A stretch of 53,511 nucleotides of DNA from an uncultured bacterium (GCA_903861045.1 CAIOST010000360.1:1-53511); one strand, 5' to 3'; positions 2,529 to 35,383 are shown, counted from the first letter of the stretch. Notes: generated by a model from the sequence alone, not told the origin. Numbers and translations: made by a program.

Positions 2529-4229
2529 CTATGGACGTTCGCCGGCTGCCTGCAGGCCCGCAAGAAGAAGCCGTCCGGCGGTGGCGGCGGGGTGCTTGGC
2601 GTAGTCCTTGTCCTTGACCAGTTGCGCAAGCGCCTTGATGGCTTCGTTGGTGTTCCCGCTTAGGTAATGACACTGCGCCCTGTAAAACAGCGCTGGCGCC
2701 GAGTACTCAACCTGGTTGGGTAAGAAGGCCAACAATTCATCGTAGGTCCTGATCGCCAGAAGGGGCTTACCCATTATCTGCAGACAACGGCCTTGGCGGA
2801 TATTCGAAAAGGGAAAGGAATGCGATATGGGGGCGTACTGCGTGAATTCTTCCGCATACTTCCCGGCGGCATACAGCTCCTCCGCCTTGGCCAGGAGCGC
2901 CGCTTCATCCGCCGGCAGCGGCTGATTGGCTGGCCAAGCTGGGATCTCATAGTCCGGGAAGAAGCCGGCCACGGCAATCACGTTGGACGCCTCGCCGACC
3001 TTGCAGGAAAACCGAAGCCGCCAAATCGAAGCTTCCAAGGGTGGGAGTTTCGCGGCCGTCGCGACGTTGGCGTTGGTCGCCGCATACGGCCCGTCTTTCT
3101 CGTACCGCGCAAAAGACTCCTGAAGCCGTGACCGGGGCGCACTGGTCGGAACATAGCAAGCGACATAGAGGTTCTCTTTGTCATAGCCAAGATGGAACCG
3201 GAGTTGAACTGCACGCGAGGATGCGCCGGTGGCACTGCCGGATGCCGTGGCGGTCGAAGCCGCGTCCCATTCGCCGGCTCTGAACAGGCCGTCGATGGTC
3301 GGTGCCTTGGCTAGGAAAGGAATCCTCACGACAGCATCCGCTGCCGACAGCGGTTGCAACGATTCGACATTATCCGCCGCCTTCCGTTGTGCCACCTCCT
3401 GCGCCACGATCGCGCCACTGCCCGCCACCACCAGACTCGCCGCAACCATCGCCGCCACCATCTTGACTTTTGCTATGAACATGGCCTTCATCGCTCCCTT
3501 CGCCAGCAATCCTGCTGTTGATGTGGCACCCGTGGCCGTGGCGGTTGTCGCCACGGCAGTCTTCACGGTCGCCAGGATGGAAGGAAGGAGTGTTTCCGGT
3601 ACCGCGGCCGAGGCTTCAGAGGTGAGCAGGCCGGCAAGGGCCACGCCGCCCAGCGCGATGCCGCGCTTGGCAAGGCGTTGCCGCAGGCGTTCGATGCCAC
3701 GGCTGGCCCGCGCCGAAAGTGTGCCCACGGCGCAACCGGCTCGTTGTGCAGCCTCGGCTTCGCTGTGATTCTGCAAATAGCGAAGAATCACCGCCTCCCG
3801 ATACCGTTCCGGTAGACTCAGCAGCGCTGCGTCCACCAGCCCCAACAGCGCCGGATCGGCGACGTCGTTCACGGCGAACGCTTCTGTCTGGATGGCTTCG
3901 TCCACGGCGTATGCTTCTTCCCGTTTTGCCCGATGCATGCGCTTCCTCACGGTTTCGGCCGCCACGAGATGTGCCACGCGATACAGCCATGCGGCCAGAT
4001 CGCCTTTCCGCAACCCACCCGCTTTTCGGGCCAGGACCACGAAGACCGCCTGCGTAGCATCCTCCGCTTCATGAGGATCCTTCAGCAACCGATGACAGGC
4101 CCGGTACACCATGGCGCCGTGCCGTCGCATCAGTTCGGTGAAGGCTGCTTCACCCTGAACAACGCCGAAGGGCGCATCCCGCCGGGACGAGTAGGCCTCC
4201 AGTAATTCTGTGTCAGTCATGGTTTGCAT
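2529..4229 (-). CDS. ECF-type sigma-70 factor fused to TM segment, CBM9-like domain and TPR-like C-terminus (ECF copy 1)
   Basis: Sigma region 2 (HEAEDATQAVFVVLARKAGGLRKGDLAAWLYRVAH) and region 4 (LPERYREAVILRYLQNHSEAEAAQRAGCAVGTLSARASRGIERLRQRL), hydrophobic segment VKMVAAMVAASLVVAGSGAIVA, then APTIDGLFRAGEWDAA...NLYVACY (CBM9/DOMON-like) and TPR-like repeats. Confidence 0.85.
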   Translation of the reverse strand: MQTMTDTELLEAYSSRRDAPFGVVQGEAAFTELMRRHGAMVYRACHRLLKDPHEAEDATQAVFVVLARKAGGLRKGDLAAWLYRVAHLVAAETVRKRMHRAKREEAYAVDEAIQTEAFAVNDVADPALLGLVDAALLSLPERYREAVILRYLQNHSEAEAAQRAGCAVGTLSARASRGIERLRQRLAKRGIALGGVALAGLLTSEASAAVPETLLPSILATVKTAVATTATATGATSTAGLLAKGAMKAMFIAKVKMVAAMVAASLVVAGSGAIVAQEVAQRKAADNVESLQPLSAADAVVRIPFLAKAPTIDGLFRAGEWDAASTATASGSATGASSRAVQLRFHLGYDKENLYVACYVPTSAPRSRLQESFARYEKDGPYAATNANVATAAKLPPLEASIWRLRFSCKVGEASNVIAVAGFFPDYEIPAWPANQPLPADEAALLAKAEELYAAGKYAEEFTQYAPISHSFPFSNIRQGRCLQIMGKPLLAIRTYDELLAFLPNQVEYSAPALFYRAQCHYLSGNTNEAIKALAQLVKDKDYAKHPAATAGRLLLAGLQAAGERP

Positions 4230-4424
4230 AACGTGTTAGCGTACCAGAATACTTTCCTCTTCCACAATAAGCCTGCAGCCAGGAGTAATTCCCTGCAACA
4301 AATTTTGATTCGGATTGTTCAGGGCAGGCCTGACCGAAATACAGCGGCGGCAGATCTCTTTCTGGGACGCGCTTATTTTGTCGGCCGCCCGCCAAGCCGG
4401 TGCTATGGAAACATGCGTGGCTAT

Positions 4425-4452
4425 ATTTCCACACGTTTAAACGTGTGGAAAT
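4425..4452. promoter_or_regulatory. 28-bp perfect palindrome (orphan operator-like)
   Basis: ATTTCCACACGTTTAAACGTGTGGAAAT; the two 14-nt halves are exact reverse complements. Confidence 0.7.
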
Positions 4453-4603
4453 GTTGCGACGTACCGTTTATCAGTGTAATGCTTTGGTGACAAGTATGTT
4501 ACGCATGTCGATATCGCGATTTGCATTCAACGACATGCGGCGGAAACAGGCACATTGAACCCGACCGCCGGGTTATTGGTTGAGTTCTGCCGTAGCGTGA
4601 CCT

Positions 4604-6585
4604 TCATTCGCCGAACACCAGACGCAGATGCAAATCCATAGACTGGTTCACTGGCCAGGGAATTTCGACTGTCCCCTCTACTCCGCCTGGAATGCGTTGC
4701 ACCTTGATCGGCTTGCCAGTAAGCGGATTCATCACCTCCGGCAAAGGATCGCCCTCCGGCGTTGCGGCAGCGCGACAAACGGCAATGATCATCGGACGGG
4801 AGGCGGTTTGGTAACACGCATACCTTTTTTGCAATAAATCCACGTTAACTTTAAGTTCCCGGATACGAGGACCCCAATCGGAAGCCTTCGCCTGGTAACT
4901 ATTGATAGCTTGCACTTGTTCAGACACGGGAAGTGCGGCTATTTGGGCGGCTATTGGCAAGAGATGGTCGTAGTATGCCGTATTTTCTTCCGCCATCCGC
5001 TTGACGAAATCTATCCGCTCTTTAGGAGTTTTGTCGCACCCAGGCGCGGGTATATGTCGGGGCGTAATTCCGCAGCCTTGTCCCACTCTTCAATGGCCTT
5101 TGCATTTCCCTGTCGCAGACGTTCGAAAATCGCATCTACATACTCTTTCTCACCCTTGAGTATCTCCTCAAAAGAACATGCGTCCGGCAATGATGCCAGA
5201 GTCATTGCAAACGGAACAAATGCCTGAGCAGGAACACGAAGTTTCGCCCTTTCCAGTTGTCCGAACATAACAGACTGAATAACATTTTTAACTAAACCGC
5301 CGATTATGCCTCCTTGTGAGGCATGCCTTCCCATCATCCAGGCCCCGTACCACGCATTGAGCCCGCTGGCATCACCATGCTCCACTCGATAGCGTCCGAT
5401 TATCAAGGATAGTTTCGCGAGGTAAATCAACGACTTTGTTTCATTGTCCAAAATATCGGAGTCTGTTTCAATTCTTGAGGCCCATTGCCAATTCACATTC
5501 TCATACTGGGCGGCAATCAGCATTTGTTCGTAGATAGGCAAACAGACCACAATATGCTGCTGTATGACTTCGGCAGGGCCATTAGTAATCCAGGTCAGCG
5601 GACTCGTTTCCGGCAGCGTCTCCAGCATCTTGAAGGCCTTGCGATAAGCTTCGGCGCAGGCGACGGGATCACCCGGATGGACCTTGAATGTCAACGTACT
5701 CGCGGTTGACTGCGTATTTGTCGTCTCGACTATTGCTGCCGTAGCGACCGGCTTCGGTGCCTCCTTCTCCGCCACCGCCTGCACTGCCGCCACACCGCTG
5801 ACGCCCACCACCCCCACACTCACTGCCACCATTGCCGCTGTTTTTACGCTGTTCCAGAACATGGCCTTCATCGCTCCCTTCGCCAGCATCGCTGCTGTGG
5901 ATGTGGCGCCCGTGGCCGTGGCGGTTGTCGCCACGGCAGTTTTCACGGTCGCCAGGATGGAAGGAAGGAGTGTTTCTGGTACCGCCGCCGAGGCTTCGGA
6001 GGTGAGCAGGCCGGCGAGCGCCACGCCGCTGAGCGCGACACCGCGCTTGGCGAGGCGTTGCCGCAGCTTGGCGATGCCGTCACTGGCACGGCGACTCAGT
6101 GTACCCTGCGGACAGGCCGCCAGTTCCGCCGCCTGCTTCTCGCTGTTCCCTTGCAGGTAGCGCAGGACAACAGCCTGCCGCAATACGGCAGATAATCCGG
6201 CCAGTTCCTGGTCCAAAAACTGCAGAGCCGCATCGGCCGGACTGTCCAGACCCGCTTCGTCACTCACCGTTTCATGCCACATGGCGACCTCTTTCTCACG
6301 CTTCGCGCTGGTTGCCCGGCGTTCCAGCGCTTGCAAGGCCACGTTGCGCGCCACCTTGTGAAGCCAACCACCCAGATTGCCTTCACGCCGGAGGGTGCCT
6401 GCCTTCCGGGCAAGGACGATGAACACGGCTTGTGTCGCATCCTGGGTATCGTGGATGTTTCCCAGCATCCGGAAGCAAGTCCGATGGACCATTTGCGTGT
6501 GCCGGACGACAAGTTCCGAAAAGGATCTCTCATCCCCCGCTTCCACGTAGGCCACCACCAGGTCCCTGTCCGTTTTGATCGACAT
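4604..6585 (-). pseudogene. ECF-type sigma factor with TM and C-terminal extension (ECF copy 2), interrupted by an apparent frameshift near 5040
   Basis: ORF 5011-6585 holds sigma regions 2 and 4, linker and TM. Its C-terminus continues in the -1 frame as ORF 4604-5086 (CDKTPKERIDFVKRMAEENTAYYDH...). The shift maps to an AAAA run. Could be a true frameshift or an assembly error. Confidence 0.7.
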
Positions 6586-6667
6586 AACGTCCTCGTATTA
6601 CCTGAAACACATCTTCCTTCACAAACAAACTCCGGGGAAACGCCAGAATCCTCGGTTATATTTTGAT

Positions 6668-7990
6668 CTACAGAACCAGCGTATCGTCGCACAACCGGTG
6701 TGCGGCATATAATGGCAGGATGCCCGTGTCGTGAATCCGTCCGAAATTCTCCATGGACAATCGCAAACCGAAGGGAACGGCGTGTTCCTTCAGAAACTGG
6801 CGCATGCTCTGCATGCCACCGCGCACACCGGCTTTTACTTCAACCGGGCATACGGTGTTTCCACGCTGAATCACATAATCCACTTCCGCATTCGCCCCGC
6901 GCGCCTCCCGATGCCAATAGAAAAGCTCCGGTCGGCGATGGGCGGCTTGATGGGCAACCAGATGAAGGCCCACAAATAGCTCGGCCAGACTGCCGCCATT
7001 GACCAGGGCCACCTCGCTCGCCGTCAGATGCGCGGGCACATTCAAACCAAGCAGGCGCTGATGAATTCCCATGTCAAACAGCAGCGCCTTGAACCGCCGG
7101 CTGTCCACCTGAGCGCCCAGGGGCAAACCCTGCGCGTGCGTGTGAAAAACCTGATGCGCCAGCGCGGCTTTGGTTAATAGGGCCAGCGTGTCCAGGATCG
7201 CGGTTGACTTGACCTCGCGATTGACCGACGCACACATGAACTTGCCGCCTGTCTGGGCGGCCACGGATCGGAATGTTTCGTTCAAGCGCTCAGTCGGAAT
7301 GCGCTTCCTGTATTTGCCGAAATCATCCTGAAAGGCGAGAATCAGATCGTCCAATACACTCATGACGTGATGCAGGTCATGGGTCTCGGCATACGCGCCC
7401 ACCGCCGCCGGCATGCCCCCCACCAGCATGTAGGTCCGAAGCCTCTCCAACAATCGCCGATGGAACGGAGCATCCACGGGCTTGTCGAAGGTGGCCTGAT
7501 CGCAGATCTCGCGCAGAGCGCCATCGCCTATCGCATCCAGAAATTCCCGAAATGTCATGGGATACATGAAGCGGGAAGTGATGCGCCCAACGCCCAGAGA
7601 TGGGATTTGCTGTAAGGCGAACTCCAGCAAGGAGCCGGCCGCCACAACATGCAACCCCGGGATCTGCTCGTGAAAATACCGTAAGGATGCCAACGCTTCG
7701 GGACAAGCCTGCGCTTCGTCCAGGAAAAGCAATGTTTCTCCCGGTCGAATCGGCACGCCTGTGAATGCGGCGAGTTTTTCGCAGATCGGCGCAGCAGTCA
7801 ATGCCTCGGTAAAGAAAAGACGGGCATCAGGCGTCTCCTCGAAATTCACCTCCACAAAATGGGGGAAATGCCGCCCAAGGGCACGCACGGAGAATGTCTT
7901 CCCCACCTGCCTGGCGCCACGCAAGATCAGCGGCTTATGCTCCGCTTCCGTGCGCCAGTTCTCAAGAACCTTTTCAATATCACGTTTCAT
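6668..7990 (-). CDS. AAA ATPase with DUF4143-type C-terminal domain
   Basis: MKRDIEKVLENWRTEAEHKPLILRGARQVGKTFSVRALG (Walker A GARQVGKT), LLFLDEAQACPEAL (Walker B), C-terminal AEVDYVIQRGNTVCPVEVKAG. Start moved from the ORF-track Met at 8332 to MKRD at 7990. Confidence 0.88.
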   Translation of the reverse strand: MKRDIEKVLENWRTEAEHKPLILRGARQVGKTFSVRALGRHFPHFVEVNFEETPDARLFFTEALTAAPICEKLAAFTGVPIRPGETLLFLDEAQACPEALASLRYFHEQIPGLHVVAAGSLLEFALQQIPSLGVGRITSRFMYPMTFREFLDAIGDGALREICDQATFDKPVDAPFHRRLLERLRTYMLVGGMPAAVGAYAETHDLHHVMSVLDDLILAFQDDFGKYRKRIPTERLNETFRSVAAQTGGKFMCASVNREVKSTAILDTLALLTKAALAHQVFHTHAQGLPLGAQVDSRRFKALLFDMGIHQRLLGLNVPAHLTASEVALVNGGSLAELFVGLHLVAHQAAHRRPELFYWHREARGANAEVDYVIQRGNTVCPVEVKAGVRGGMQSMRQFLKEHAVPFGLRLSMENFGRIHDTGILPLYAAHRLCDDTLVL

Positions 7991-8016
7991 GCTTGTCCTC
8001 AGCTGCCACAGTTGTT

Positions 8017-8092
8017 CCCACATGTCGGCTCTTAAAAAAACACTTTGCGCCCATTTATCGGCTCTATAAAACACTATATTCGCCCATATGTC
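8017..8092. repeat. 33-bp tandem repeat (about 2.3 units) in the leader of the DUF4143 ATPase
   Basis: Units at 8017-8049 (cccacatgtcggctcttaaaaaaacactttgcg), 8050-8082 (cccatttatcggctctataaaacactatattcg), partial 8083-8092 (cccatatgtc). Confidence 0.75.
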
Positions 8093-8185
8093 AAATCGTA
8101 CCTTGGTGACCATGGGGGTCGTGGCGGCCGTCGCCCTGCGCAAGCGCCAGCTCGAAGGGCCATGCGAATGTCCCAGTGGATTCTG

Positions 8186-8280
8186 GCCGTGGCTGTTGTC
8201 GCCGCGGTTCCTTGCACGGTCGTCTGAATGGAAGGAAGGGATGTTTCCGGCACAACTGCCGAGGCTTCGGAAATGAGAGC
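8186..8280 (-). pseudogene. Remnant of ECF sigma linker (SEASAAVPETLLPSI block)
   Basis: Plus-strand gtggctgttgtcgcc...aatggaaggaagggatgtttccggcacaactgccgaggcttcgga matches the linker DNA of the three fuller copies. Minus-strand translation LISEASAVVPETSLPSIQTTV. Confidence 0.65.
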
Positions 8281-8308
8281 GAAGACTAGCTACAGGCACG
8301 ATTGTCGC

Positions 8309-8339
8309 AGAATGTCCATTCGCTCTGGACATTCTGCAC
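8309..8339. promoter_or_regulatory. Perfect 12-bp inverted repeat (7-nt spacer) upstream of abiEi copy 1
   Basis: gcagaatgtcca-ttcgctc-tggacattctgc immediately upstream of the AbiEi/AbiEii operon. Confidence 0.75.
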
Positions 8340-8363: not shown

Positions 8364-9014
8364 ATGACCATTATCATGGATATTCGCGATAGCGTACGCG
8401 CGGAAGTTCTGGACTACCAGCAACTGATGGCGTGTCTACAGGACTACGCCAAGCCGCGCGACCGGATCAGCGCCTTTCTGGCCGATGGCAGTCTGGTGCG
8501 TGTACGCAAGGGGCTGTATGTGTTCGGTGAACGTTACCGACGCACGCTTGTCAGCCGTGAAGTCCTGGCCAACCTGATCTATGGGCCTTCCTACATCAGC
8601 CTCGATTATGCGTTAAGTATCCACGGTCTGATCCCGGAGCGCGTCACGGAGGTAACCTGCATGACCGCCGGCGAAAAGCGGCGCTTCACAACGCCCTTCG
8701 GCGTCTTCTCCTACCGCCCGCTCTCCTTGCATCGCTATGCGCCGGGAATCGTATGGGCTGGAGAGGGCGAAGCCCGATACCTGATGGCCTCACCCGAGAA
8801 GGCGCTGCTGGACAAGGTCTGGGCTGATCCGCGCTTCCGCCCGATGAAGCAGCAGAATTTCGATTCCTATCTGTTCGCGGATCTTCGGGTGGAGGAAGAT
8901 CGCCTGGCCGCACTGGATCACGGCCGGATCGAGGCCATCGCCCAGGCATACTCCTCGCGAAAAGTCACCATGCTGGCCCGTTTTCTGACAAAGCGCTACC
9001 GGAGAGAAACATGA
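8364..9014 (+). CDS. AbiEi-family antitoxin (type IV TA)
   Basis: LADGSLVRVRKGLYVFGERYRR...GPSYISLDYALSIHGLIPERV...TPFGVFSYR...ASPEKALLDKVW is typical of AbiEi-like proteins. Overlaps a nucleotidyltransferase gene. Confidence 0.85.
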   Translation: MTIIMDIRDSVRAEVLDYQQLMACLQDYAKPRDRISAFLADGSLVRVRKGLYVFGERYRRTLVSREVLANLIYGPSYISLDYALSIHGLIPERVTEVTCMTAGEKRRFTTPFGVFSYRPLSLHRYAPGIVWAGEGEARYLMASPEKALLDKVWADPRFRPMKQQNFDSYLFADLRVEEDRLAALDHGRIEAIAQAYSSRKVTMLARFLTKRYRRET

Positions 9015-9868
9015 ATGACGCTATTCAGCAGATGATGGCACGTTACGCTTGCAAGACCCAGGACGACCACATCAACGCGTTACGGGAGATTCTCCAGCAA
9101 ATCGCCTTGCTCGGCCTCTGGCGCGGCAAGTTCTTCGAACATGCCGCATTCTATGGCGGCACGGCGCTGCGCGTGCTGTATGGCCTGGACCGGTATTCCG
9201 AAGATCTCGACTTCTCCCTCCTCAAGCCGTCCAAGACATTCTCGCTGGACACCTATGGCCAGACGCTGCGCCGTGAGATCGCGAGCTTCGGCTTCGAGGT
9301 ATCGTTTGAAGTCCGGCAGAAGACGGCTGATTCGGCCATCGAATCCGCCTTTCTCAAGGCCAATACCGCCGAACAGTTGATTGTCATTCACGCCACCCAC
9401 ACCGCGTTACACCGCCATCAGACATTGAAGATCAAGCTGGAGATCGATACCGATCCTCCGGCCGGGTTCGAGACGGAGAGCCGGACCGTGCTCCTGCCGA
9501 CACCGTTTGCCGTACGCGTGTACCGTCGTCCGGATCTCTTTGCCGGGAAGATGCACGCGATCCTCTGCCGGAAATGGCAGAGCCGGGTCAAGGGGCGCGA
9601 CTGGTACGACCTGGTCTGGTATATCAGCCGTCATCCGCAACTGCATCTGAGCCACTTGGAAGCGCGTATGCGCGCTTCGGGCGACTGGACCGGCGACGCG
9701 AGCCTCACCCGCGCCGACCTGTTCAACCGCCTACGCGCCACCATTGCCGAACTGGACGTCGCCCAGGTGCGGCAGGAAACGAGCCGCTTCATCCGCGATC
9801 CGTCCACGCTGGCAATCTGGTCACCGGAATTCTTCAAGGAGATCACGGAGAAGATCGAGACGGTGTGA
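9011..9868 (+). CDS. AbiEii-family nucleotidyltransferase toxin
   Basis: FYGGTALRVLYGLDRYSEDLDFSL and FAGKMHAILCRKWQSRVKGRDWYDLVWYI; ATGA overlap with abiEi. Confidence 0.9.
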   Translation: MNDAIQQMMARYACKTQDDHINALREILQQIALLGLWRGKFFEHAAFYGGTALRVLYGLDRYSEDLDFSLLKPSKTFSLDTYGQTLRREIASFGFEVSFEVRQKTADSAIESAFLKANTAEQLIVIHATHTALHRHQTLKIKLEIDTDPPAGFETESRTVLLPTPFAVRVYRRPDLFAGKMHAILCRKWQSRVKGRDWYDLVWYISRHPQLHLSHLEARMRASGDWTGDASLTRADLFNRLRATIAELDVAQVRQETSRFIRDPSTLAIWSPEFFKEITEKIETV

Positions 9869-9923: not shown

Positions 9924-11079
9924 CTACATGGACACCGTTACGTCTATGTTGCCTTCCTCTTCTTTCCCGACACAAACGCAAATTTTGGCCACGCTCTTAT
10001 CAAGCCGAATTTCTTGCTCTCTTTTTTCTTCAGCCGGGAGCGTTATCCAGTCCACAAACCGTACTTCGCCCGCAACAAGTTCTTTCATTTTCGCAGGGTC
10101 GATCGGAACTACCTGTAAGTCAACTGGCATGCCGTCAGGACTAGAGAACTTCTGCAACTTCACTCTTACCGTGAAATTTGTTTCCGAGGTCTTCTTCATA
10201 GTCGCGCCCTTGTCTGCCTCATTAGCCACCGCCGGCTGTTCCGCCGCCTTGCGTTGCGCCGCCACTTCCTGCGCCACGATCGCGGCACCGCCCACCACCA
10301 CCACCACCACCGCCGCCGCGGCCACCGCCGCCACCATCTTGACTTTTGCTATGAACATGGCCTTCATCGCTCCCTTCGCCAGCATTGCTGCTGTTGATGA
10401 GGCGGTCGTGGCCGTGGCGGATGTCGACACGGCAGTCTTCACGGTCGCCAGGATGGAAGGAAGGAGTGTTTCCGGTACCGCTGTCGAGGCTTCGGAGGTG
10501 AGCAGGCCGGCGAGCGCCACGCCGCTGAGCGCGACGCCGCGCTTGGCCAGACGTGCGCAGTTTGGCGATACCGTCACTAGCGCGCCACTTCAGGGTGCCA
10601 ACCGTGCAACCGGCCAACGGCGCTGCGACCTCCTGACTGTGATTCTGCAAGTATCTCAGAATCACCGCCTGCCGGTATCGTTCCGGCAGACTCAGCAACG
10701 CGGCATCCACGAGTCCGAACACAGCGGGATCGAACTCTTCGGCCGACGGCGATCCGAAATTCTGAATCGCCTCGTCTTCCGCGTATGTGTCTTCACGCCT
10801 GACTCGGTGCATGCGCTTCCTCACGGTTTCGGCTGCCACATGATGCGCCACCCGGTACAGCCACGCGGAGAGATCGTTTTTGCGTAAGCCGCCGGCCTTC
10901 CGCGCCAGGACCACGAAGACCGCCTGCGAAGCGTCCTCGGCTTCGTGCGCATCTTTTAGCATTCGATGACAGGCCCGGTACACCATCGCACCGTGCCGTT
11001 TCATCAATTCGCCGAATGCCGTATCGTCCTGACGAGACGAATAGGCATCGAGCAATTCCGCGTCTGTCAGGGTCTGCAT
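9924..11079 (-). pseudogene. ECF-type sigma factor with TM and short C-terminal extension (ECF copy 3), apparently frameshifted near 10556
   Basis: N-terminal part in ORF 10222-11097 (MQTLTDAELLDAYSSRQ...AVILRYLQNHSQEVAAPLAGCTVGTLKWRASDGIAKLR). The C-terminal part continues in another frame as ORF 9924-10577 (RLAKRGVALSGVALAGLLTSEASTAVPETLLPSIL...VVVVVVGG...). Confidence 0.75.
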
Positions 11080-11241
11080 AGCGTAACAGCGTACCAAAGC
11101 ACTCCTTCCTTCTACAATAGGCCTGCAGTGGAAAGCGATTCGTTGGAAAAAAGGAGGGGGATTCGATTACTTTGTGGTTGAATATGCATGCCAATCCCGT
11201 TTTCTATTTGCAATAGATAACACTTATGATATGTTTCGCAT

Positions 11242-11883
11242 ATGAACTTAGGTGATATTGTCCGGATTGTCGGGGAACTGCCGTGCTTCGATTTGGCGCT
11301 GCTGACGCAGGCGTTCGATGACCGTCGGGAGGGAATCCGGGTGCAACTTTCGCGCTGGATGAAGCAGGGCAAGGTTATCGGACTCCGGCGTGGCATGTAT
11401 GCGCTCGCCGAGCCCTACCGACGCGCGACGCCGAATCCAGCCGTGCTCGCCGGCCGCCTGTACCGGCCGTCCTACCTCAGCGGGTTGTGGGCGCTGGGAC
11501 ACTACGACCTGATTCCGGAACGAGTCGTCAGGTTCACCAGTGTGACGCCACGCGTCCCAAGCCGCTTCGAGAATCCCTTCGGCGTCTTCGACTACCGTAA
11601 CATCAAGCAGGCCTGTTTCTTCGGATTTGCGTCAACCGGCGTTGCGGGTCAGGATTTCTTTGTCGCCGAACCCGAGAAAGCGTTGCTGGATCATTGGCAC
11701 CTGACCGAGGGGGAGTGGACCACGGAACGTATCGATGAGATGCGCTATCAGCATGTCGCTCGGGTTGACGCGGAACGTCTCGGGCGTTACGCGCAACGGT
11801 TTCAAAGTCCGCGCCTGGACCGGGCCGTCCAACGGTGGCTTCGAATGGCGGGTGATGCAGAGGAAGGAACGGTGGCGCTATGA
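11242..11883 (+). CDS. AbiEi-family antitoxin (copy 2)
   Basis: GLRRGMYALAEPYRRA...RPSYLSGLWALGHYDLIPERVVRFTSVTPRVPSRFENPFGVFDYRN...AEPEKALLDHW. Confidence 0.85.
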   Translation: MNLGDIVRIVGELPCFDLALLTQAFDDRREGIRVQLSRWMKQGKVIGLRRGMYALAEPYRRATPNPAVLAGRLYRPSYLSGLWALGHYDLIPERVVRFTSVTPRVPSRFENPFGVFDYRNIKQACFFGFASTGVAGQDFFVAEPEKALLDHWHLTEGEWTTERIDEMRYQHVARVDAERLGRYAQRFQSPRLDRAVQRWLRMAGDAEEGTVAL

Positions 11884-12674
11884 AAGAGGAAGCCTTGGCC
11901 TTGGTTCGGGGTGTACCAGATCCGGTGCAAGCCCTGAACCGACTCCGGGAATACCTTCAGGCTTTTGTGTTACGGTCGTTCCACGAAAGCGAGGCGTTCC
12001 GGCCGCTGGCCTTTGTCGGCGGAACAGCGCTGCGTTTCCTGCATGGTTTGCCGCGATTCTCCGAGGACCTCGATTTCTCGCTTGTTTCCATCGATGGCTA
12101 TGCGGGAAAGGAATGGATGGCCAAGGTGAAACGTGACTTGACGCTCGCCGGGTTCGCCCCGGAGGTGACCTGGAATGACCGCAAAGTTGTGCATACAGGC
12201 TGGGTTCGCGTGGCCGACATCCTGCATGAGGCGGGTCTGTCGGCCATGCCGACGGAGAAACTGGCCATCAAGGTAGAAATCGACACCCGGCCGCCGGCGG
12301 GTGGGAGCTGCGAACGACGGATCGTCACGCGCTACGTGACCTTCCTGCTCCAGCACTACGACCTGCCATCGCTCCTGGCCGGGAAACTGCACGCCGTCAT
12401 CACCCGCAAGTATGCCAAGGGGCGGGACTGGTACGATCTCATGTGGTATCTCTCGCAACGCCCGCCGGTGGCCCCGAACCTGCCATTGTTACAGGCGCTC
12501 GACCAGACGCAAGGAGCCGGACGTCGCGATGCTCTGGCCTGGAAGCAACTGGTGCAAGCACGGTTGACGGCCTTGGACATGCGGGCGGTCAGCGAGGATG
12601 TCGGTCCCTTCCTCGAACGGCCTAAGGACGCAGCGTTGCTGATGCGTGACAACCTGGCGGCGCTGCTGGGGTGA
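11880..12674 (+). CDS. AbiEii-family nucleotidyltransferase toxin (copy 2)
   Basis: FVGGTALRFLHGLPRFSEDLDFSL, LLAGKLHAVITRKYAKGRDWYDLMWYL; ATGA overlap with the antitoxin gene. Confidence 0.9.
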   Translation: MKEEALALVRGVPDPVQALNRLREYLQAFVLRSFHESEAFRPLAFVGGTALRFLHGLPRFSEDLDFSLVSIDGYAGKEWMAKVKRDLTLAGFAPEVTWNDRKVVHTGWVRVADILHEAGLSAMPTEKLAIKVEIDTRPPAGGSCERRIVTRYVTFLLQHYDLPSLLAGKLHAVITRKYAKGRDWYDLMWYLSQRPPVAPNLPLLQALDQTQGAGRRDALAWKQLVQARLTALDMRAVSEDVGPFLERPKDAALLMRDNLAALLG

Positions 12675-12734: not shown

Positions 12735-12925
12735 CAACCCGCGCAGGTAGCGCAGGATCACCGCTTCGCGGAAGATGGCTGGAATGGCATGCAGTTCGAC
12801 GTCCACCTGCCGCAGCACAGCATCCGTGTCAACATCCGACACGTCTATTGTCAGCCTCTGCTGCCAACCGGCGGCATCTTCCTGACGCCGTTCGCGATCC
12901 GATCGCTGCCGCAAAGCCTGCACAT
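12735..12925 (-). pseudogene. Remnant of an ECF sigma factor (region 4 N-terminal part)
   Basis: Minus-strand MQALRQRSDRERRQEDAAGWQQRLTIDVSDVDTDAVLRQVDVELHAIPAIFREAVILRYLRG; ...FREAVILRYL is characteristic of ECF region 4. Truncated on both sides. Confidence 0.65.
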
Positions 12926-13042
12926 GAACAATCTACCAGAAACAACGATTCCTTCCATACCTATGCTCACAAGATTACGCAAAAGGTTCGCGGAAAATTA
13001 TACCCGTCATTGGCCCATCAACTTCCATCGGGCCTCCGCTCG

Positions 13043-13107
13043 TAACGCAGCAGTTTGCATTAAGGCGTAATCGCGGCGGGTCCGGCGGCCCCGCCCTACC
13101 AGAAACC
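13043..13107. repeat. Copy of a dispersed GC-rich intergenic repeat (partner at 35320-35383)
   Basis: cagcagtttgcattaaggcgtaatcgcggcgggtccggcggccccgccctaccagaaacc resembles the reverse complement of 35320-35383. Confidence 0.65.
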
Positions 13108-13317: not shown

Positions 13318-13404
13318 CCTATTTCAATGCCATAACCAGTGTGATTCCCTATCGCACTGGGCAACCCGGCGCGCCTGCTCTTGGCGTGCCCCGCAGAAAA
13401 ATAT

Positions 13405-13450
13405 CGGTTCCGAATAGGGGCGGCCGGTCGGCCGCCCCTATTCGGAACCG
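13405..13450. repeat. 46-nt perfect hairpin (21-bp arms, GGTC loop)
   Basis: cggttccgaataggggcggcc-ggtc-ggccgcccctattcggaaccg. On the minus strand it is followed by a T-rich stretch (gatattttt), so it could also end minus-strand transcripts. Confidence 0.75.
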
Positions 13451-13455
13451 CCGTC

Positions 13456-13497
13456 GTAACGACTTATCGCTTGAAAAGTGTTAATTTAAGTCGTTAC
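13456..13497. promoter_or_regulatory. 11-bp perfect inverted repeat, 20-nt spacer, upstream of fic
   Basis: gtaacgactta (13456-13466) and taagtcgttac (13487-13497), about 35 bp before the likely fic start. Confidence 0.65.
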
Positions 13498-13530
13498 AAT
13501 AAGGTCTGTTGCGCTAAAAAGGTGGTTACA

Positions 13531-14550
13531 ATGCCTGGAAAACCATTTCAATCCATGCTGCTTCCTTATGAGGAAGAGATCTTTGCTTTGCTGGATGCTG
13601 GCAGGAGTTTCCGTGAAACGGCTGCTGTATTGAACAAGGCGCATGGCTTGTCGGTCACGCACAACGCGGTTTTTTCATTTACCAAAAGCCGGCGCAGGCA
13701 GCGCGGATTTCGTCTCTTTTACGAGGGGCTCTCGCCAGATATCCGTGATCATCTCCTGAAGCAGGTTGCGGCGGTCTGGACGCATGACTCCACGGCCATT
13801 GAAGGTAATACCCTGACGCTGGGCGAAACCCTCAAGGTGCTGGAACTAGGCTTAACGATCAGCGGCAAACCCCTGCGGGAGCATCAGGAAGTTTACGGAC
13901 ATGCCCGGGCCATTGACCTCATCTACCGGATGCTTCGTCGTCCGGAGGTTACGCCGGAGGATCTGTTCGACCTGCATCGCGCGGTCATGCAAGCTTCGGC
14001 GGTGGATGCCCTCAATCCCGTCGGAAACTGGAAGCAGGCCAACAACGGCACCACAGGCGTGGCCAATGGCAAGATCGTCTACATGGAGTACGCCGACCCG
14101 CTGGACGTGCCGCACCTGATGAAGCGCTGGTTGCATGAATTCAACCGCGCACTGCAAGCGATGCGCCGGCCCGAGGACGCCATCCACGCGTATGTCATGG
14201 CGCACATGGGATTCGTGCGCATTCACCCCTTCTTCGACGGCAATGGCCGCGTAGCCCGGCTGGTAGCCAACATTCCCGTCCTGAAGGGTGGCCATCCCCC
14301 GATTGTTGTCCCCAAGGAACGACGCAGCGACTACATTGATTTGCTTTGGGAGTATCAGAACGCGGTTGGCAAGATCAACCGCGATTCGCCATTCGTACCA
14401 CCACATCCGGCTGTCGAACGTCTCATAGTTCTTCTGCGGACCGAATGGCAACACACCCTCGCGCCGATTACGGCCGCCCGCCAACGCGAAGCGGAACGAC
14501 ACGCCGACTCGGCGAAGATTTCTCCGCAGATTTCACAGATTAACGCATAG
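13531..14550 (+). CDS. Fic/DOC-family AMP-transferase-like protein with N-terminal HTH-like region
   Basis: Core motif HPFFDGNGR; inhibitory-helix-type motif STAIEGNTLTLGET; N-terminal EEEIFALLDAGRSFRETAAVLNKAHGLSVTHNAVFSFTKSRRRQ looks like a DNA-binding helix cluster. Start MPGKPFQ chosen over upstream Met. Confidence 0.88.
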   Translation: MPGKPFQSMLLPYEEEIFALLDAGRSFRETAAVLNKAHGLSVTHNAVFSFTKSRRRQRGFRLFYEGLSPDIRDHLLKQVAAVWTHDSTAIEGNTLTLGETLKVLELGLTISGKPLREHQEVYGHARAIDLIYRMLRRPEVTPEDLFDLHRAVMQASAVDALNPVGNWKQANNGTTGVANGKIVYMEYADPLDVPHLMKRWLHEFNRALQAMRRPEDAIHAYVMAHMGFVRIHPFFDGNGRVARLVANIPVLKGGHPPIVVPKERRSDYIDLLWEYQNAVGKINRDSPFVPPHPAVERLIVLLRTEWQHTLAPITAARQREAERHADSAKISPQISQINA

Positions 14551-14702: not shown

Positions 14703-14945
14703 TCACCCCTGGCCCCCCCGCCTGAGCGTCCCATGCTCTGTCCCGCCTGTCGGCGACAGGACGCCTTCTTTCACCAATGTGTCGTCAGCTGCCGGCGTCA
14801 GCTTCACCGGAAGAAACGAGCCGCCTTTACGAATCTGCTCCATCTGGTACTGCATGAGGAACTTGTCCAAGTCCGCGGGGGCGGCGGTTTCGGCCGCCAC
14901 GAGATGCGCCACCCGATACACGCCTTCCTTCACAAACAAACTCCG
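14703..14945 (-). pseudogene. Chimeric remnant of ECF sigma factor (region 2 piece joined to unrelated C-terminal sequence)
   Basis: Minus-strand VYRVAHLVAAET matches WLYRVAHLVAAET of ECF copy 1, then AAPADLDKFLMQYQMEQIRKGGSFLPVKLTPAADDTLVKEG. Confidence 0.6.
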
Positions 14946-15000
14946 CAGTCAGGCCGAATACCTCGCATAAAAATGCGATCGGTCTTGACTATCGCCCAGT

Positions 15001-15306: not shown

Positions 15307-15734
15307 GGATTCTCGTCGACACCAACGTTCTGCTGGACGTGCTGGCGCGCCGCGAGCCATTCTACGCGGCCGCCGCCGCGATCTGGTCGTTGGCGGAGCG
15401 GGGCGAAGTGCGCGCCGTAGTGTCGGCCATCAGCTTCAATAACGTCTATTACATCGTGCGTCGGGCGGAAGGCCGGACGCAGGCGCTGAAGGCCATGCGC
15501 CTGATCCGCGACGTCTTCGACGCCGTGCCGCCGGACAGCCAGATCATCAACCAGGCCATTGACGCCAACATGGACGACTTTGAGGATGCCGTTCAGTTCC
15601 ATTCGGCGATCCGCGCCAAGGCCACCTACCTCGTAACACGCAACCCCGGCGACTTCCCGAAGTCCGCATTGCCGATTCTCACACCGGACGAATTCCTCGC
15701 GGCATGGCGGAACAAGACAAGCGAACAGCCGTAG
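15303..15734 (+). CDS. PIN-domain VapC-like ribonuclease toxin
   Basis: MRILVDTNVLLDVLARREPFY...FEDAVQFHSAIRAKATYLVTRNPGDF; GTG start overlapping the antitoxin stop. Confidence 0.88.
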   Translation: MRILVDTNVLLDVLARREPFYAAAAAIWSLAERGEVRAVVSAISFNNVYYIVRRAEGRTQALKAMRLIRDVFDAVPPDSQIINQAIDANMDDFEDAVQFHSAIRAKATYLVTRNPGDFPKSALPILTPDEFLAAWRNKTSEQP

Positions 15735-15742
15735 CGGGACCA

Positions 15743-15865
15743 TCATTCGCCGAACACGAGACGAAGACGCACAGGTTTATCCTCCGACCACGGGTTATGG
15801 ACGCCCGCCTTCCGGGCCAGTACCACGAAGAACAACTCTTCCTTCTGCAATAAGCCTGCAGTGAC
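15743..15865 (-). pseudogene. Internally deleted remnant of ECF sigma family member
   Basis: Minus-strand FVVLARKAG (region 2) joined directly to RLRLVFGE*, the same C-terminal end as ECF copy 2 (LHLRLVFGE*). It retains the conserved upstream block cttccttctgcaataagcctgcag. Confidence 0.7.
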
Positions 15866-15939
15866 TGCCAAATCCCTCGCAATAAAATGAACGGCAAGAA
15901 CAATTACCGCCATCGCGGTGTTATTGGCGTATAATTTTG

Positions 15940-35262: not shown

Positions 35263-35383
35263 CCAACAATTCTCATTATGGAGCAGGGCGGGGCCGGCGG
35301 CCCCGCCCTGCTCCATCCGTGTGGTTTCTGGTAGGGCGGACCCGCCGGACCCGCCGTGATTCCCCCATAATGCGAATTGCTGG
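35263..35383. repeat. Foldback (MITE/REP-like) element with near-perfect terminal inverted repeats and internal hairpins
   Basis: Termini ccaacaattctcattatgg / ccataatgcgaattgctgg (17 of 19 complementary); internal perfect hairpin 35280-35314; partner sequence at 13043-13107. Confidence 0.6.

Follow-up and report, generated by a model that had tools for sequence, protein, structure and literature searches.

The window analysed here, a 53,511-nucleotide (nt) stretch of an uncultured bacterium (GCA_903861045.1, CAIOST010000360.1:1-53511), carries three copies of an extracytoplasmic function (ECF) sigma factor gene, ECF1 to ECF3. It is one contig of a 406-contig, 4.73-Mb assembly (G000). We propose that ECF1 and ECF2 encode one-protein transmembrane signal transducers that are probably activated by regulated proteolysis. 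The sigma2-sigma4 half would be held, and thereby inhibited, at the cytoplasmic side by a hinge and a single membrane segment, with the periplasmic C-terminal half sensing the state of the envelope or an exported component. A signal-dependent cut on the outer side would come first, following which a site-2 protease would cut in or near the Ala/Gly-rich anchor, freeing sigma to join RNA polymerase. Most ECF work presumes a separate anti-sigma factor; here the putative sensor is fused behind the membrane anchor. The three copies are laid out as follows.

2529-4229, minus strand: ECF1, 566 residues; sigma2-sigma4, hinge, one hydrophobic anchor, a C219-type domain and a C64-type TPR region
3405-3461, minus strand: predicted ECF1 transmembrane segment, residues 257-275
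5011-6585, minus strand: ECF2, 524 residues; sigma2-sigma4, hinge, one hydrophobic anchor and a C-terminal half with no Pfam match
4604-5086, minus strand: open reading frame (ORF) continuing ECF2 in another frame and overlapping it; probably its frameshifted 3' end
5782-5838, minus strand: predicted ECF2 transmembrane segment, residues 250-268
9924-11097, minus strand: ECF3, the third copy; sigma half at 10555-11079, hinge, anchor and short extension at 9924-10553, in different frames
10272-10328, minus strand: predicted ECF3 transmembrane segment

Domain order and predicted membrane topology

The sigma half of both proteins is readily recognised. Pfam Sigma70_r2 and r4_2 match ECF1 (4e-11 and 8e-12) and ECF2 (3e-11 and 1e-4, the latter just under the r4_2 cut-off), and NCBIfam TIGR02937 is above cut-off for both. 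With sigma2 and sigma4 only and no sigma3, both have the domain content of an ECF factor.

A scan of 84,980 species genomes, limited to the 80 best loci, brought up relatives mostly in Planctomycetota, plus Lentisphaerae, Kiritimatiellae and a few others. The same assembly holds two further copies, one on contig C69 (truncated at the hinge, with two stops) and an intact one of 963 residues on contig C307, while a genome of the same order but another family (G015) has seven, of 487-2268 residues. In a phylum sample of 289 genomes, 31 have a match with E<=1e-30, and almost all of these matches lie in long open frames. The window copies appear to belong to a planctomycete/verrucomicrobial mode of one-protein signalling that is widespread but still uncharacterised.

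A hydrophobic segment was defined as a 19-residue window with a mean Kyte-Doolittle hydropathy of at least 1.6 at residues 195-340. The strongest window, at the residues listed above, averages 2.18 in ECF1 and 2.19 in ECF2, and that of ECF3 averages 2.72; the single hydrophobic segment that the initial annotation had placed right after the linker was found in all three copies. Such a window occurs in 85 of 87 related ORFs (each at least 330 residues), whereas equal-sized blocks within the extensions reach the threshold in 2 of 160, so its conservation is not due to chance. The 15 residues preceding the segment hold on average 2.45 Lys plus Arg, compared to 1.55 in the 15 following it, and the count is higher before the segment in 53 relatives, equal in 20 and lower in 12. 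This bias suggests the sigma half lies inside.

The C-terminal halves of ECF1 and ECF2 are mutually unrelated, and both sit after an Ala-rich hinge and one hydrophobic segment. ECF1 residues 300-399 match a protein encoded on contig C219 of the same genome (31%, E 2e-12), and residues 442-546 match a TPR protein on contig C64 (36%, E 1e-18). Both have a signal-peptide-like start, as does the product of the gene adjacent to the C307 copy, with which the extension of C307 shares 71% identity over 438 residues (all three starts were judged by eye). The ECF2 extension gave no Pfam match. Across 64 extensions of the relatives 111 Pfam families were matched; the truly distinct domains are far fewer, because many matches are overlapping WD40 models. 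WD40 propellers are present in about 8-9 of the 64, and in neither ECF1 nor ECF2. Matches above cut-off to A2M, MG2 and bMG10 mark one of the G015 extensions as a bacterial alpha2-macroglobulin; others in G015 match T2SSG and YfiO, again above cut-off. Sigma-alpha2-macroglobulin fusions of ~2270-2320 residues occur in three genomes, G015, G070 and G166, the latter two from the same class. These loci and that of C307 are:

L124, 1833-8639: sigma-alpha2-macroglobulin fusion
L174, 813-7694, minus strand as listed: sigma-alpha2-macroglobulin fusion
L175, 956-7912, minus strand as listed: sigma-alpha2-macroglobulin fusion
L126 (G000, contig C307), 2-4305: sigma-sensor fusion and freestanding, exported-looking sensor paralogue

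The domains predicted behind the anchor in relatives (alpha2-macroglobulin, T2SS-G, YfiO-like) are ones that normally act outside the cytoplasm. Hydrophobicity, charge bias and domain homology thus give good inferential support to a single-segment tether with sigma in the cytoplasm and an exported C-terminal half, the topology proposed in the initial annotation: the position of the anchor, the charge bias, the outside-type domains and the secreted-looking paralogue beside C307 all point the same way, and that proposal was probably right. It is highly improbable that the segment is instead a buried helix and the extension cytoplasmic: the Ala-rich segment is just moderately hydrophobic (~2.2), as such a helix might be, but the charge bias, the secreted-looking paralogues and the alpha2-macroglobulin, T2SSG and YfiO-like domains all argue against it.

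The same paralogues bear on whether the anchor could act as an internal signal peptide, the C-terminal half being cut off and secreted and the fusion merely co-producing it with sigma. A freestanding, secreted-looking paralogue does adjoin the C307 fusion, and the end of the ECF1 anchor (AIVAQ-E) resembles the presumed end of the C219 signal peptide (AAMAQ-E). A signal-peptidase site at the anchor was sought and rejected, as AxA is found in 32 cases with 38 expected from shuffles. Co-production alone would also leave unexplained why very different proteins from separate phyla retain this architecture, and we consider this explanation quite unlikely.

The nature of the ECF1 signal is less clear. 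The initial annotation saw a CBM9-like motif in the extension and suggested carbohydrate or polymer sensing. The motif is visible by eye, but CBM9 gave no Pfam match in the extension even at E<=10, and a phmmer search of the PDB with ECF1 lent it no support, so that the CBM9 label is unconfirmed by these sequence-level tests. The C219 protein is the sole homologue found here for the domain so labelled; it has no credible PDB match, and its GH123_N match is at cut-off and falls outside the part common with ECF1. Carbohydrate sensing by ECF1 may serve as a lead only. Recognisable outside domains in related proteins of two phyla (alpha2-macroglobulin, pseudopilin, the copy of a neighbouring secreted protein) give testable guesses about the signal: C307, for example, might monitor its neighbour's product or the ligand of that product.

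Proposed release of sigma and related systems

No relative (0 of 85) has the zinc anti-sigma motif HxxxCxxC between sigma4 and the anchor, and the ECF1 and ECF2 linkers contain neither Cys nor His. No zinc anti-sigma gene was found near the ECF1-3 loci; the sole zf-HC2 match of the assembly, on contig C271, adjoins an unrelated, conventional-looking ECF gene. These results fit the earlier view that a separate anti-sigma is lacking. FecR-like anti-sigma domains gave no match in the ECF1 and ECF2 extensions; in G015 a FecR_C match below threshold was seen in one extension.

Ligand-gated proteolytic release of sigma, as the initial annotation had in part envisaged, is plausible by analogy. IutY, a fusion of ECF and anti-sigma, is activated through Prc/RseP proteolysis (PMC8999054), and from IutY and the looser analogue ECF52 release by intramembrane proteolysis would be the most likely route (PMC8999054, PMC5826349). 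In the planctomycete Tuwongella immobilis, several ECF sigmas were found solely in detergent-soluble fractions (PMC8567305).

In an AlphaFold2 model of ECF1 the sigma domains are confident and so, to a fair degree, are the hinge helices at residues 195-206, 214-228 and 238-286, the last running unbroken into the anchor. Widely conserved hinge positions are L198, L214, L242, A243, G245, M250 and K256, as expected of a part touching sigma. These features would also suit a protein that stays tethered, its outer half shifting conformation or oligomerising so that the hinge uncovers sigma without cleavage. The comparison, a general one, is with ToxR/CadC-type one-component regulators, which act from the membrane without cleavage. 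The best PDB matches of the model in Foldseek include SigW with RsiW and SigmaE with RseA, and the lack of AxA enrichment at the anchor end also fits a protein left whole. The Foldseek matches are to sigma chains only; they do not show the modelled hinge inhibiting sigma and cannot place it in the anti-sigma site. IutY, the sole characterised ECF of similar build, is moreover cleaved (PMC8999054). Activation while tethered is possible, at well under even odds, and we favour proteolysis over a conformational change as the activating step.

Several observations weigh against proteolytic release. Site-2 protease homologues are present in the genome and equally in 14 of 14 control genomes; being near universal, they are uninformative. 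The protease site, the cleavage and the localisation are themselves inferred. The ECF1 extension is mostly unresolved in the AlphaFold2 model, at low confidence, and the WD40 fold seen in some related extensions is often thought cytoplasmic. What the literature proposes for ECF57 is protein interaction rather than proteolysis (PMC8999054). Lastly, ECF1 is the sole clearly intact copy of the three, given the frameshifts in ECF2 and ECF3.

In ECF3 a 2-nt difference at ~10555, at the sigma4/hinge border, puts the sigma half and the hinge in different frames. ECF2 probably carries a frameshift near its 3' end, since the open frame goes on in the ORF at 4604-5086, whose terminal RLVFGE recurs in a relic at 15.7-15.9 kb. 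The joined ECF2 extension and ORF found no homologue outside the window as a query, so relatives cannot confirm this frameshift. Assembly error is a possible source of both frameshifts, the window being one contig of 406. The split ECF3, the frameshifted ECF2, the two stops of C69 and at least four relics could indicate decaying paralogues with no present function. ECF1 is nevertheless open over 566 codons, and C307 and the seven G015 copies over 487-2268 codons; together with the possible assembly errors, this makes general decay unlikely.

The kind of protein is already known, from C-terminally extended ECFs in planctomycetes and membrane-fused ECFs elsewhere, and the initial annotation was correct that ECF families with fused C-terminal transmembrane and extracytoplasmic parts exist in other phyla (PMC8999054, PMC5826349). 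Among published kinds, IutY, ECF52/SCO4117 and the planctomycete ECF57 come nearest. IutY (ECF243, Pseudomonas putida) likewise joins sigma and a membrane-spanning regulator in one protein and is the source of the release model (PMC8999054), but it carries a fused membrane-bound anti-sigma and serves iron-starvation cell-surface signalling, whereas ECF1 and ECF2 have no anti-sigma match. ECF52 (SCO4117, Streptomyces coelicolor) shares the order of sigma, transmembrane region and extracytoplasmic part, which there includes a carbohydrate-binding domain (PMC5826349); it differs in its Pro-rich extension and in its zinc-finger anti-sigma domain, HxxxCxxC being absent from ECF1 and ECF2, and ECF52 is said to occur in Actinobacteria only. 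Among the features of ECF48, ECF52 and ECF53, a C-terminal transmembrane segment and an extracytoplasmic part are found here, as judged from hydrophobicity and charge only, and the zinc anti-sigma domain is absent.

ECF57 (Planctomycetes; model WP_015250107.1, Singulisphaera acidiphila) also has a large variable C-terminal extension and no anti-sigma; two conserved cysteines, in sigma2 and sigma4, and an often WD40-like extension are described for it. The relatives here resemble it in including Singulisphaera loci (L063 and L118), in the WD40 domains of a subset and in the sigma2 Cys, present in 79 of 89 and as Cys45 in ECF1. ECF57 differs in that the regulation proposed for it in print is through protein interaction or conformational change, and in that ECF1 lacks Cys at the usual sigma4 column: Cys is found there in 53 of 89 relatives and Arg150 in ECF1, with ECF1 Cys166, 16 residues further on, common to 38 of 89. 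RpoE/RseA-type systems follow the same logic of sigma inside and sensor outside, but with two proteins rather than one. The set described here is distinct in its predicted lack of a zinc anti-sigma domain, its recognisable extracytoplasmic sensor domains and its conserved hinge DNA; a literature search, with the main ECF classification papers beyond its reach, found no prior description of these features.

Hinge DNA and its inverted leader copy

The hinge is conserved at the DNA level and its core recurs, inverted, ahead of the genes:

3495-3677, minus strand: ECF1 hinge block, codons ~185-245; DNA up to 90-98% identical among paralogues, with frozen synonymous codons
3578-3603, plus strand: ECF1 hinge core read on the antisense strand (TGGAAGGAAGGAGTGTTTCCGGTACC), 26 nt; reverse complement of the leader motif
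4241-4266, minus strand: ECF1 leader motif, 11 nt upstream of the ECF1 ATG
5875-6057, minus strand: ECF2 hinge block
5958-5983, plus strand: ECF2 hinge core, antisense strand
6599-6624, minus strand: ECF2 leader motif
10454-10479, plus strand: ECF3 hinge core, antisense strand
11091-11116, minus strand: ECF3 leader motif, holding GAAGGAAGGAGTG with no mismatch

Among ECF1, ECF2, ECF3 and C69, most nucleotide identities in the sigma region are 40-80%; over hinge codons ~195-225 they climb to 90-98%, with a drop beyond. Where two copies share a hinge amino acid, they use the same codon in 85% of cases inside G000 and in 84% when G000 is compared with G015; permuting synonymous codons within each hinge gives 46%, and the top values in 200 permutations are 53% and 50%. 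For the sigma region, same-codon use is much nearer its control (0.42-0.60 against 0.37-0.43), while in the anchor it is elevated as well (0.73-0.84, control 0.49-0.59). The excess is smaller in three more distant groups and was not found in G015 copies f and g, which are likewise more distant. Of 162 genomes from the order, only G000 and G015 gave matches to a 191-nt hinge query.

Identity matrices indicate reassortment, with the genes read as mosaics of sigma, hinge and anchor and the hinge as the joint. C69 is 49% identical to ECF1 in sigma, 94% in the hinge and 87% in the anchor, and its sigma is 88% identical to that of G015 copy b; ECF1 and G015 copy c are 90% identical in sigma and 62% in the anchor. 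Gene conversion with between-lineage transfer, or direct selection on the DNA or RNA, would either fit the hinge pattern. A mobile element was considered and rejected: a 23-nt core had no match in viral contigs, and plasmids gave just distant sigma matches.

The antisense hinge core recurs before the start codon in all nine copies from ECF1-3, C69 and G015 a-e, its 3' edge lying 6-13 nt upstream of the ATG used. Local alignment scores are 11-16, and of 500 dinucleotide shuffles per leader at most one reached the observed score; the nine copies are mutually homologous and hence not independent tests. When the leaders of all 53 ORFs in the window with 200 codons or more are compared, those of the ECF genes score 16, 16 and 11 and the next best 9. 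A related pattern, drawn up after seeing the sequence, matches the window seven times at up to three mismatches (0.16 expected), always at ECF copies or relics. By duplex energy the hinge is the best partner of the leader in each of the nine subfamily copies, but shuffled leaders come near or beat the observed value in several of them, and most of the distant relatives lack the effect; the sequence-match test is the firmer of the two. Covariation was judged by eye with no formal score, and departures in the ECF2 and ECF3 leaders mostly break pairs rather than forming G-U. As leader changes break pairs and the hinge is invariant, there is no compensatory support for a leader-hinge duplex.

The leader was rejected as extra coding sequence, since frames differ among copies and stops occur, and as a regulon-wide promoter, a strict pattern search of G000 and G015 giving one site, a known leader. 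Our tentative suggestion, which we would not hold to strongly, is that the inverted 26-nt pair bounds the sigma module and acts in one of two ways: in translation, through a leader-hinge mRNA duplex formed in cis or across paralogues, or in recombination, as a site where sigma and sensor modules are exchanged. A shared protein-binding site is a further candidate. The frozen hinge DNA and its inverted leader copy allow a cheap test of gene shuffling or translational control.

Relics and neighbouring genes

Four relics of the family were located in the window:

8182-8289, minus strand: hinge-block relic, within the start of the AAA_14/DUF4143 ORF as listed
~12735-12965, minus strand: sigma-region relic, about sigma2.3 to sigma4
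~14885-14965, minus strand: leader motif directly abutting an inner sigma2 fragment (internal deletion)
15728-15880, minus strand: leader followed, across deletions, by a short sigma2 fragment and a 3' end of ECF2 type

In the last two the leader motif is fused straight to the inner sigma2 fragment, which is compatible with deletions near the leader motif and proves nothing.

On the minus strand at 702-2168, a helix-turn-helix protein (1914-2168), a HipA N-terminal ORF (1616-2044) and a HipA_C ORF (702-1631) lie in a row, a layout that we read as HipBST-type, a toxin-antitoxin system of three genes, and not as a broken hipA. An AAA_14/DUF4143 ATPase is encoded at 6668-8332 and a Fic protein at 13381-14550, and two gene pairs, at 8364-9868 and 11242-12674, each have AbiEii as second member; with these, the surroundings of the ECF copies abound in toxin-antitoxin-like genes. 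AbiEii-like and ATPase-like neighbours seem, by eye, to adjoin G015 copies too (L122 and L123). A 60-nt inverted repeat (13048-13107 and 35323-35382) is 87% complementary, with its arms 22 kb apart.

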